Shown here: positions 8,354-12,323 of the stretch, in pieces
Layout of the letters: every line of letters starts with the position of its first letter
How positions within the stretch are numbered: position 1 is the stretch's first letter
Assembly: GCA_016926475.1 (NCBI GenBank)
Contig: JAFGON010000088.1
Location: 1-23,021, forward strand
Direction: 5' to 3'
DNA: 23,021 nt
Source of the DNA: a candidate division WOR-3 bacterium
GTDB taxonomy: Bacteria; SDB-A
Position numbers and translations under genes: made by a program
Notes under the pieces: generated by a model
What the model was told of the DNA's origin: nothing
Seen by the model: the letters and a program-made list of their open reading frames with translations, nothing else
Database searches by the model: none

Positions 8354-11300
8354 CTAATTGCTGTTATCCCGACAACCGATACTCCGCGTATGAGAGGTTT
8401 TTAAAAATATTTCGAGCCTTCTTTTTTTTATCAAATAAATTGAATCCTTGAATCCCTGAATCTGTTCTACAGGAGTTTGGATCAACCGGATATACATATC
8501 CAGAGCTACAAAAGCCGCTTCCAATGATTTTGTGTCTTCCCAAATCGCATAAAAAGCGCTTGCTTTTTTTTCGAGGGATCCAATCTTTTCTGCCAATTTC
8601 TTCATATTTTCTATTTTTTCTCCTGAGGGTGATTTTATGTATGAGATTCTCTGTTCTCTGAGATCCAAATCCTCCAACGATTTTCCTTCAAACACCTCTT
8701 TGGTGAGTTTACCCAATTCCTTCATAACTTCCAGCGCCTGCTCCGGTTTTTTCAAAGCGCAATAGATCTCGTATTTCATGTCCATCACCTCTAAACGTAA
8801 TTCATTGAAATAATCTTTTCCAATAATTTTCTGTTCAGCCCTGAGCGCGTATTCGAGAGATTCTTGATGTTTTTCTTGAAATCTGTAAAAAGACGCGAGA
8901 TTAATGAGCGCGAAGTATGCCGGCAGTTTGTAGCCAAACTCGAGCGCCAAATCCAGTGATTTTCTGAAAAGTTCTTCTGAGCTTTTATCATCTCCAAGAG
9001 CCTGATATACTCTTCCCAAGTTGTTGGATACATACATAACAGTGGCTTTATTGCCGATTTTTTTGGAAATTTCAAGAGCTTTTAGGTAGTATTCCAGACT
9101 GTTTTCCATATTGAGGTAAACTTCCGTGTATGTTAGAGCGATATTTGAATAAATTACTTCCAGCAGGTAAAGGTCTTCAGCTTCTTTGGCAATTTCAAGG
9201 GCTTTCAGGAGAATTTTCAAAACGTTTGACAGTCCTATTCCCTCCACCCTGCCGCAGAATATCGCTATGTTTGACAGAATATAGGCTTGGCTGACCTTTG
9301 CATCCGCTTTTTCGAAACAATCCAGGGCTTTTTTAAAATATTCAAGAGCGGTCTTTTCGTCGTTTATATCATGGTAGTAGATGCCAAAAAACTGCTGAAT
9401 TTTCCCTTGAGTGATCAAGTCTGAAGAAATAGATTCGAGGCTCTCAATTCTTTTCAAAAATCCAAACATATCCTCCAATTTACCTCGGCTTTGGGCTATG
9501 GATGAAAGACAGATAAGACTTTGTGCTTTAATATCTTCCCATCCGTTCCCTTCGCTCTCATCAAGCGCCTGTATCGCGGATTCCTCGGCTGAAATCAGGT
9601 TTTCGGTGTTTCTCAAAAGTTCAGCTCTCCTGAGAGTGTTTCTGGTTTTCTCCCTGCCGAAAGGCAGGTATTTGTCGAGAGCTTTGTAAAATTTAATAGT
9701 ATCCGAAGCTGATACAGCGTTTTCCGAAATTTTAAGGGCTCTTTTCAAATAGAGCGGAGCATTTTTTTGATCTTCCGCCAAGTCGTAATGGTAAGCAACA
9801 AAAGCGGTGTAACGATCGTCTCTGTTCAAAAGCTCAAAACTTTTCGCGGCTTCAAGGTGCAGCTTTCTCCTCTCGCTCAACAACTGCATCTCGTAGATCG
9901 AGTCCCTTATCAAAGCGTGTGAAAACATGTAAAAACCGGTTTTCGCGCCAGCCCATATCCCGTTTTTCTCTCCATCTTCAAGAGTTTTTACAAGATTCAC
10001 CGACAATGCCATCTTTTCGAGTATTTCCACCTGAAAATCTCTTCCGATCACAGAAGCTTTGACGGCAACCCTTCTCAGGTCTTCGCCAAAACTGTCAAAC
10101 CTCGAGACAAGCAATGCCCTAATGTCAGAAGGGATAGAGACTGTCTTTGAAGTCAGCCTGTATTCAGCGTCTAACATCCCGTTTTCTGTGAAATAACCCA
10201 GTATCTGTTTAATGTAGAAAGGGTTTCCTTCCGTCTTTTCATGCACGAACTCCATCGTCGTAAAAGGAATGTTCTCATTCCCAAAGAATTTTCTCATCAT
10301 GTCGAACGAATCTTCTTTCTCAAAAGGTTCGAGTTTGACAGCCCTGAGACTTTCAAACCCTCTGAAAAGACCATCCTCTTCCCCTTCCCTCTGAGGTCTG
10401 GAAGCTACGACGACAATAAACGGAAATTCCTCGACGCCCTTGGTCAAAAATTTCAAAAAAGCGGCTGTCTCCGTGTCTATCCAGTGCGCATCATCTATAA
10501 ACACGCCCAAAGGTTTTTTCATCGAGAGTCTCTTTATAAAAGCTTTTATAAAATAAAATAATTCGTCTTTCTTGTTTTTTAATCCCAACTGTCCATATGG
10601 GGATTTTTCAGTCTTTAGGCCCAACAAATCCGTGAAAAGATAGGCCATCTTCTCCTTTTCGGATTCGTCGGAAAAACCATCGACTCCAAAAATCCCATCT
10701 ATACCTTGTCCTACTTTTAAAGCCTTTTCGCTCTCTCCTGCGACGTTTTCTAAGTTGAAGTAATCCTCCAAAAACTGCCGGATCGGATTCAAAGAATACC
10801 TGTAAATCTGGTCGCAAGCCATTGATACCCAGCGAATATCGGGGTTGTCCTCTGTAAGTTCTGAAACAAAATAACTCTTGCCGATTCCCGCTTCACCTTC
10901 GATTTTCAGGAAACCGCCGAATTTTTTAGACAGAATTGTATCTTTCAGTATTCTCAGAGTTTCTTCGAGTTGTCTTCTCCTGCCTACAAAACCGATCGCT
11001 TTTCTCTCTGTTTTTGTATTTTTTTTCTCTCCGACAACAGAATATATCTCTATGGGTTTTGTAAAACCCTTCATTTTCGACTTCTTGTACATTTCAAAGG
11101 TATACAAACTTTTCAATTTCTTGACCACGGAGTATTCGACAAATATCCTCGGCTCGGAAGGCAAATCCTTATCTTTGTATGCCATCAGCCGAGCCGCCAG
11201 GTTGACTTTCTCTCCTTGGCAAGTGTATTCAGCCCTTTCTTGACTTCCTGAAAACCCCGAAAAAGCCATCCCAAAAGTTATACCGGCGCAAATCATGAAA

Positions 11301-12220
11301 TCCGGAATCTTTGAAGCGGTAAGAGTCATCTCGACCGCCCTCTCGCGCAACTTCTCCTTTCCCTCGGGGGCTCCGTAGAAAGCGAGTATAAACCCGCCCT
11401 TGTCACCGTAACTCACCCTGTTGAAATACCCGCCGGTCTGAAGGACGAGGCCAGTGACTTCGGATATTTTTTCCTTGAGATCTGCGGTTTCTCTGAACGA
11501 CAAAAAAACACTCGCCACTTCCCTGAATTCACCTCTGAGAGATTCGTCCATCAGCCTTTTGGGAAAAAATCTCTCCGTGACGTCTTCTCGCGGAAGGCTT
11601 TCGACGTTCCGTCTCTCGTGAGGTTTCGGCCCATAAAAAGGAACGAAAACACCTTTTTCGACCTCTTTATAGTTTTCAGCCTTAAACCTGTTTTTGAATT
11701 CCAAATCCACAACCACGCTATTTTTCGGACAGAAGCCCTGGATTTTCCCCGCTGAATCAATGGGTTCACCCTTGAAATAATACGAGTTCTGCTTATCGTT
11801 CTCTATTATCCCCCACTCGATTTCACCGACCGAAAGGCCTGTTTTGACTGAAAGGTCAAACCTCCCCCACTTAGTTTCTTTAACGCCAGAACTTACAAAA
11901 AGAGAGCATATTTTCCCCCCGGTCAAAACGGCGTTTTCAAGATAATTTACGTCGGCACTGCTGAATATCGAGTAAAAAGCGTCACCTCCGAAAACCGAAA
12001 CAAAACCTCCATATTCTCTTGTCTCTGAAATCGCGGGGGAAAATATTTCGTTTATCGTCAGTGTCAGAACTTCTATACCTTCATTCCCTCTGTCCATCAG
12101 CTTTTTTGTCATCTCTGTGAATCCTGATATATCGACAAACAAAACAGCCGCTCGAAGTTTTCCAGACCTCTTGCCTTCAAGATATTTTTTGGAAATGAAA
12201 CTGGGTATCAGCTCTCGCAT
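8354..12220 (-). CDS. Soluble-adenylyl-cyclase-like protein: two class III cyclase domains, NTPase, TPR repeats
   Basis: This 1288-residue cytoplasmic protein has no membrane segment. Domain C1 (about 22-200) carries the metal aspartates Asp30 (LFVDISGFTEM) and Asp80 (VFGGDAFYSIF), and Lys126 (SVKTGLSVG). Domain C2 (about 233-398) lacks the first metal aspartate (VFLSFRE) but keeps Lys274 (GDKGG), Thr333, Asn340 and Arg344 (YTCQGEKVNLAARLM). The pair should form one active site making cAMP from ATP, as in human ADCY10. A P-loop NTPase of AAA_16 type follows, with Walker A GEAGIGKS (442-449) and Walker B VFIDDAHW (Asp576/577). From about residue 850 there are TPR-like repeats (ALEYFKKALDCFEKA, SLEYYLKALEISKKIG). 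By position, human bicarbonate ligands Lys95 and Arg176 correspond to Val76 and Gly158. No clear ribosome site precedes ATG 12220; the gene may follow 12803 in one transcript. Confidence 0.85.
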   Translation of the reverse strand: MRELIPSFISKKYLEGKRSGKLRAAVLFVDISGFTEMTKKLMDRGNEGIEVLTLTINEIFSPAISETREYGGFVSVFGGDAFYSIFSSADVNYLENAVLTGGKICSLFVSSGVKETKWGRFDLSVKTGLSVGEIEWGIIENDKQNSYYFKGEPIDSAGKIQGFCPKNSVVVDLEFKNRFKAENYKEVEKGVFVPFYGPKPHERRNVESLPREDVTERFFPKRLMDESLRGEFREVASVFLSFRETADLKEKISEVTGLVLQTGGYFNRVSYGDKGGFILAFYGAPEGKEKLRERAVEMTLTASKIPDFMICAGITFGMAFSGFSGSQERAEYTCQGEKVNLAARLMAYKDKDLPSEPRIFVEYSVVKKLKSLYTFEMYKKSKMKGFTKPIEIYSVVGEKKNTKTERKAIGFVGRRRQLEETLRILKDTILSKKFGGFLKIEGEAGIGKSYFVSELTEDNPDIRWVSMACDQIYRYSLNPIRQFLEDYFNLENVAGESEKALKVGQGIDGIFGVDGFSDESEKEKMAYLFTDLLGLKTEKSPYGQLGLKNKKDELFYFIKAFIKRLSMKKPLGVFIDDAHWIDTETAAFLKFLTKGVEEFPFIVVVASRPQREGEEDGLFRGFESLRAVKLEPFEKEDSFDMMRKFFGNENIPFTTMEFVHEKTEGNPFYIKQILGYFTENGMLDAEYRLTSKTVSIPSDIRALLVSRFDSFGEDLRRVAVKASVIGRDFQVEILEKMALSVNLVKTLEDGEKNGIWAGAKTGFYMFSHALIRDSIYEMQLLSERRKLHLEAAKSFELLNRDDRYTAFVAYHYDLAEDQKNAPLYLKRALKISENAVSASDTIKFYKALDKYLPFGREKTRNTLRRAELLRNTENLISAEESAIQALDESEGNGWEDIKAQSLICLSSIAQSRGKLEDMFGFLKRIESLESISSDLITQGKIQQFFGIYYHDINDEKTALEYFKKALDCFEKADAKVSQAYILSNIAIFCGRVEGIGLSNVLKILLKALEIAKEAEDLYLLEVIYSNIALTYTEVYLNMENSLEYYLKALEISKKIGNKATVMYVSNNLGRVYQALGDDKSSEELFRKSLDLALEFGYKLPAYFALINLASFYRFQEKHQESLEYALRAEQKIIGKDYFNELRLEVMDMKYEIYCALKKPEQALEVMKELGKLTKEVFEGKSLEDLDLREQRISYIKSPSGEKIENMKKLAEKIGSLEKKASAFYAIWEDTKSLEAAFVALDMYIRLIQTPVEQIQGFKDSIYLIKKRRLEIFLKTSHTRSIGCRDNSN

Positions 12221-12323
12221 AGTCTACTTTTTATTATCACATCCTTCGCTTGTCAACAAAGATGGATCGTAAGATTACACTTATTTGCAGATCTTTTTTA
12301 AAAAACGGTTTCAACCGAAGACG

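Follow-up and report, generated by a model that had tools for sequence, protein, structure and literature searches.

Human soluble adenylyl cyclase (sAC, ADCY10) is a protein of about 1610 amino acids in which a pair of class III cyclase domains, C1 and C2, precedes an NTPase and a region rich in tetratricopeptide repeats (TPRs). The residues associated with its activation by bicarbonate are Lys95 and Arg176. Bacterial proteins with the same domain order have been known since 2002-2004 (Roelofs and Van Haastert; Kobayashi, Buck and Levin; as cited in PMC6660944), and an enzyme from Chloroflexus has been reported to be activated by bicarbonate (Kobayashi 2004, as cited in PMC11006738). Most sACs of non-mammalian animals were found in a 2026 study to lack one or both ligand residues, those of sea urchin and salmon being regulated by pH instead (PMC12867704). 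A bacterial protein with the full sAC domain order is thus not new, and outside mammals the ligands are, according to published work, normally lost; our own literature search on the class III cyclase/AAA/TPR architecture found nothing relevant. The window analyzed here is an entire contig of 23,021 nucleotides (JAFGON010000088.1, C88 of genome G000) from a candidate division WOR-3 bacterium whose assembly comprises 2.15 Mb in 106 contigs. It encodes a protein of 1288 amino acids, shorter than the human enzyme, which is probably an sAC-like bacterial cyclase of class III that acts on ATP and is controlled by a STAND ATPase-TPR switch.

The order C1-C2-NTPase-TPR, already recognized in a preliminary description of this DNA as that of ADCY10, was borne out by Pfam, by structure models and by the identity of the best structural match. 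Pfam places Guanylate_cyc at residues 306-395, AAA_16 at 411-602 (E 1e-14) and TPR repeats at about 1000-1170. When solved structures were searched by sequence, human sAC came first (E 7e-19), with residues 25-172 of the query aligned to C1 and 249-355 to C2; identity to the human enzyme is 22-23%. A model of residues 1-405, with 70 sequences as input, was very confident (predicted local distance difference test score, pLDDT, 94.9; predicted template modeling score, pTM, 0.92). The first 24 Foldseek matches to this model were all human sAC (3.1e-29), and VIA-align superposed it on human sAC with a Z of 39.7 and a root-mean-square deviation (rmsd) of 2.4 Å over 380 residues, the best membrane cyclase scoring lower (Z 35.9).

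A contig scan for relatives of the window protein yielded at least 501 related loci in public genomes, a family far beyond chance. The 80 loci most similar to the window protein were taken; their labels include WOR-3, Cloacimonadota, Mcinerneyibacteriota, Neomarinimicrobiota, Saprospiraceae, Chloroflexota, Spirochaetes, Polyangium and Gemmatimonadetes. Residue equivalences were read from a pairwise alignment to human sAC that was then re-made with 93 bacterial sequences, the roles of the human residues being those of Table 1 of PMC12867704 and, for Thr405, of PMC12250328. Six of the seven catalytic equivalences in the preliminary description stand: Asp30, Asp80, Lys126, Thr333, Asn340 and Arg344 correspond to human Asp47, Asp99, Lys144, Thr405, Asn412 and Arg416, respectively. 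All residues for metal, phosphate and transition state are thus kept, along with the equivalent of Thr405. The seventh was misplaced. Lys274 had been equated with the adenine-reading Lys334; however, human GQINK(334)VFMFDK(340)G aligns with GGYFNR(268)VSYGDK(274)G, pairing Lys334 with Arg268 and Lys340 with Lys274, and the window's Asp273-Lys274-Gly275 is the human DKG 339-341 of the C2 beta2/3 loop. What had been called the full set for ATP cyclization therefore amounts to six residues plus a Lys-to-Arg change. The kept residues and the confident model resembling human sAC still suggest that the active site is probably competent, as had been proposed.

Since just 32 of the 93 bacterial members have Lys at position 334, this residue, as judged from the alignment, is not a defining trait of the bacterial sAC-like family. 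The Arg/Thr combination at the base-reading pair (334/405) recurs in 11 of the 93, distributed clade-wise; two of the five sAC-type enzymes encoded by genome G187 have it as well. We take this genome, in which the chlorosome CsmA gene is present, to be almost certainly Chloroflexus aurantiacus. On account of the recurrence of the pair, Arg268/Thr333 is read from the alignment as a natural variant rather than damage. A different pair, Glu334 with Ala405, occurs as a clean covarying combination in 27 homologues, nearly all from Saprospiraceae/Chitinophagales (e.g., L048, L065, L072, L085 and L091). Guanylate cyclases typically have Glu at the base-reading position, and these homologues may be sAC-type guanylate cyclases.

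The remainder of the protein (residues 407-1288) was modeled separately (pLDDT 90, pTM 0.86). Its matches comprise the STAND-TPR protein 6mfv, MalT, Apaf-1 and the NB domains of plant NLRs, then TPR proteins; the second Foldseek match is Avs3. Residues 407-863 of the model superpose on MalT with a Z of 24.7 and an rmsd of 4.0 Å over 369 residues. STAND proteins are recognized by a GR motif, Walker A and B, a GxP motif and their fold, and all are found here, with GR at 413-414 and GNP at 665-667. Among the homologues, G413, R414, G442, G447, K448, D582, R608 and G665-N666-P667 are invariant. Because of these structural matches, the C-terminal part, as modeled, is assigned as a STAND switch with a TPR sensor, and the fold lends support to the regulatory role that had been proposed for this half. 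The protein shares with MalT, 6mfv and Apaf-1 an NTPase, a winged-helix/helical arm and a repeat sensor in one chain; whereas MalT and Apaf-1 have a DNA-binding or a death domain as effector, the window protein has the N-terminal cyclase pair.

From the computed domains, fold and residues we infer cyclase activity on ATP, STAND gating and downstream receptors, as follows. C1 and C2 would fold onto each other to form one active site, in which Asp30 and Asp80 of C1 would hold two metal ions, Arg268 and Thr333 of C2 would read the base, Lys126 would take the pyrophosphate, and Asn340 and Arg344 would stabilize the transition state as ATP is converted to cAMP. A second, symmetry-related pocket, the bicarbonate site in the human enzyme, appears degenerate. 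The STAND switch, with its ATP/ADP-dependent NTPase and TPR sensor, would restrain the cyclase until the TPR superhelix binds a ligand or partner. The cAMP formed would be read by the cell's cyclic nucleotide (cNMP)-binding proteins, among them a CRP-like protein and an MscS channel with a cyclic nucleotide-binding (CNB) domain. Such gating is plausible because mammalian sAC has an autoinhibitory sequence C-terminal to C2 and its full-length form is about ten-fold less active, as described in PMC11006738.

The bicarbonate ligands are missing from the window protein. In both the human sAC and the 93-sequence alignments, Val76 stands at Lys95 and Gly158 at Arg176, exactly where the preliminary description had put them, with no basic residue at either position; the stretch around Gly158 is gap-free, though Lys159 follows directly. 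With Lys334, Lys95 and Arg176 all replaced, the window protein is, on the alignment, not a mammalian-type bicarbonate-regulated sAC. It does not differ from its relatives in this respect. A larger alignment with human sAC comprised 129 bacterial C1-C2 pairs: those of the best 80 loci, of 13 proteins of the window genome (the window's included) and of further Chloroflexota enzymes. Arg occurs at position 176 in none of the 129; position 95 has Lys in 12 and Arg in 2, so that Lys95 is missing from 117, and no relative in this alignment has Lys95 and Arg176 together. Given these counts, absence of the ligands is, at the level of sequence, the rule in bacteria and nothing special to the window protein. 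The idea that the window protein lost ligands that its relatives keep was rejected, as the pair is found in no relative in the alignment. Because this sample joins the best 80 of at least 501 loci to a Chloroflexota set, a rare bacterial enzyme with Arg176 may exist outside it. With this finding, the long-standing view that bicarbonate sensing is ancient and conserved can be tested directly.

A FastTree tree places human sAC beside Chloroflexota enzymes that have Lys95 (support 0.73), inside a largely Chloroflexota clade, to which Lys95 in bacteria is almost confined. The window protein falls in the other big clade (93 sequences), where Lys95 is never present. The enzymes of the presumed C. 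aurantiacus genome share with it the C1-C2-NTPase-TPR architecture and the lack of Arg176 (Ala, Ala, Ala, Gly and Ser in the five); they differ in belonging to the human sAC clade and, in three of the five, in having Lys95. Since all five lack Arg176, yet a Chloroflexus enzyme is reported to be bicarbonate-activated, lack of this residue does not predict bicarbonate insensitivity in bacteria, and the earlier suggestion that the window protein may not sense bicarbonate does not follow from its missing ligands. The sACs of sea urchin, salmon and most other non-mammalian animals resemble the window protein in missing at least one ligand while keeping the catalytic residues, but often only one ligand is lost, commonly to Asn, and the two tested were pH-regulated (PMC12867704).

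These comparisons raise the possibility, rather unlikely in our estimate and compatible with a STAND-gated cyclase, that a site different from Lys95/Arg176 makes the window protein responsive to bicarbonate or to CO2/pH. Class IIIb cyclases, which are linked to a bicarbonate response, have the Thr found here as Thr333. The five presumed C. aurantiacus enzymes, set beside the reported activation (Kobayashi 2004, cited in PMC11006738), and the pH regulation of animal sACs missing one ligand (PMC12867704) point the same way; however, the assayed Chloroflexus enzyme is not matched to any one of the five, three of these have Lys95, and the window protein, itself without Lys95, belongs to the other large clade. 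A wider picture, which we advance tentatively as a real possibility short of a probable one, is that Arg176 is absent from all bacterial sAC-type enzymes, bicarbonate stimulation in bacteria acting via another site or pH; that the switch was a late addition on the way to mammals; and that the window clade, with about a dozen copies per genome, consists of STAND-TPR receptors feeding one cAMP pool.

As the architecture is known, the single window protein matters little. Two points are unusual: Arg176 is absent from all examined bacterial members even though a bicarbonate response has been reported, and sAC-type genes are densely represented in a small genome. Complete C1-C2-NTPase-TPR genes number 12 in the window genome; with up to four pieces that are truncated or lie at contig edges, and 9 other class III cyclase genes, the total is 21-25. 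They lie on contigs C88, C105, C8, C33 (two), C62, C54, C73 (two), C49, C24, C90 and others. Among an estimated 2,000 genes this would amount to about 1%, or about 10 per Mb, a density above that of the record holders of a 2005 census, in which Bradyrhizobium had 37 adenylate cyclases and M. tuberculosis 16 (0.3-0.5% of genes; PMC1183210). The window genome belongs to the genus of G002, a genome that matches records of JAFGIG01, "candidate division WOR-3 bacterium Zod_Metabat.185" (L041, L106), and it shares a family with LKUE01, "Desulfuromonas sp. SDB" (L034, L094). Its family relatives are comparably rich: three gave at least 12-16 matches each, with more in two of them. The presence of at least 12 sAC-type STAND cyclases, about half of them degraded, in such small genomes suggests a receptor repertoire feeding one second messenger. 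The record name "Desulfuromonas sp. SDB" looks wrong, given the family shared with the WOR-3-like window genome.

The full catalytic set, with Lys or Arg at 334 and Thr405, is present in 7 of the 13 sAC-type C1-C2 pairs of the window genome. The rest are degraded to varying degrees: L022 lacks Asp47 and Arg416, while L012, L019-L021 and L023 lack base-reading or other residues. As about half of these paralogues have lost catalytic residues, the family tolerates dead cyclases. This weighs against an active ATP cyclase, conservation alone being no proof of activity where so many paralogues seem to have degraded; so does Arg268 in place of the adenine-reading Lys, which makes the base preference less than certain, and the C1-C2 model was built from ligand-free sequence. 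The degraded paralogues and Arg268 would fit a pseudo-cyclase, in which C1/C2 would merely bind nucleotides or act as a scaffold, leaving the work to the STAND-TPR half. We consider this improbable for the window protein, whose metal, phosphate and transition-state residues are all present, whose Arg at position 334 is a clade-wide state, and whose C1 and C2 are among the parts best conserved between near paralogues. Very improbable is another product (cGMP, cCMP or cUMP), possibly made as a sensor-triggered defense alarm like that of a Pycsar cyclase: Arg268 departs from the Lys customary in adenylyl cyclases, STAND sensors such as Avs3 serve in phage defense, the family is expanded in the genome and PADLOC PycC models give weak matches (best E 1.9e-9), but these extend no further than the fold shared by class III cyclases and fall far short of the sAC match in strength, Thr333 is suited to adenine, and no typical Pycsar effector is seen among the listed neighbors of the window gene, effectors not having been searched for systematically.

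For the STAND-gated ATP cyclase that we favor, candidate receptors are at hand. Five cNMP-binding proteins are encoded in the genome, namely a CRP-like protein of 214 amino acids, the CNB-MscS channel, two CNB-only proteins and a CNB-GGDEF protein, and the Arg of the phosphate-binding cassette is present in four of the five. The product of the channel gene (L029:1330-2847, minus strand) joins an MscS-type mechanosensitive channel to a cNMP-binding domain at the C terminus and is a candidate for gating by cyclic nucleotides. The CNB-GGDEF gene beside the nearest relatives, L114 and L115, makes a link from cAMP to c-di-GMP possible. A clean relay of this kind was not adopted: the cassette of the CNB-GGDEF protein reads KITSA/KTTSA/KTTTA rather than xRSA, without Arg, and the window copy does not lie beside a CNB-GGDEF gene.

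Full-length homologues of the window gene are present in its own and in other genomes. Its sister within the genome is L010 on contig C105 (51% identity over the full length, tree support 1.00), which shares the Arg/Thr pair and the absence of bicarbonate ligands. Identity between the two is 60% in C1, 65% in C2, 47% in the NTPase, 63% in the arm that follows and 40% in the TPR region, a pattern as might be expected for a constrained enzyme and a diversifying sensor; the orthologue pair L011/L041 shows no such contrast. Both same-genus genomes have one close relative each (L114 and L115), divergent from the CNB-GGDEF gene (about 105 bp) and convergent with a TPR gene. In the window genome, contig C14 opens with the CNB-GGDEF gene and contig C105 with L010, and the end of C14 resembles the L114 intergenic region. 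L010 is therefore probably the positional orthologue of L114 and L115, and would by comparison with the same-genus genomes stand divergent beside the CNB-GGDEF gene; the window gene, located elsewhere, is probably an extra copy.

Table 1. Positions of the cyclase gene, its domains, key codons and putative promoter in the window, and of CNB-GGDEF genes at other loci.
Feature	Position	Strand	Basis or detail
sAC-like cyclase gene, 1288 aa	8354..12220	minus	ATG 12220-12218, stop 8356-8354; open reading frame and translation
C1 cyclase domain, about residues 19-195	11636..12166	minus	alignment to human sAC 42-190, 93-sequence alignment, model
C2 cyclase domain, about residues 230-400	11021..11533	minus	alignment to human sAC 315-427, 93-sequence alignment, Pfam Guanylate_cyc 306-395, model
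STAND-type NTPase and helical/winged-helix arm, residues 407-863	9632..11002	minus	Pfam AAA_16, invariant residues, model compared with MalT
TPR superhelix, residues 864-1288	8357..9631	minus	Pfam TPR_12, model, matches to LGN, Rap and other TPR proteins
Val76 codon, at bicarbonate ligand Lys95	11993..11995	minus	human sAC alignment and 93-sequence alignment
Gly158 codon, at bicarbonate switch Arg176	11747..11749	minus	human sAC alignment and 93-sequence alignment
Arg268 codon, at adenine-recognizing Lys334	11417..11419	minus	human sAC alignment and 93-sequence alignment
Walker A GEAGIGKS, residues 442-449	10874-10897	minus	
Walker B LGVFIDD, residues 571-577	10490-10510	minus	
Promoter-like TTGACA (12256-12251), 17 nt, TAAAAA (12233-12228); putative	12228..12256	minus	sequence and comparison
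cNMP-binding and GGDEF protein	L114:295-1395	minus	
cNMP-binding and GGDEF protein	L115:294-1394	minus	
cNMP-binding and GGDEF protein	L033:85-1185	plus	

The coding part of the window reading frame spans 8357-12220, or from 8354 with the stop. The promoter-like TAAAAA ends 7 nt before the start codon, and a TTGACA with a TA-rich arrangement is also found upstream of the gene in L114 and L115. The window pair is absent from the list of a consensus promoter scan because of the -10 rule of that scan. The position of -10-like boxes a few nucleotides before the ATG, in the window gene and in its nearest relatives, suggests that their mRNAs may be leaderless. The neighbors of the window gene are ABC exporter genes and genes for an outer-membrane-like and a phosphate-binding-like protein.

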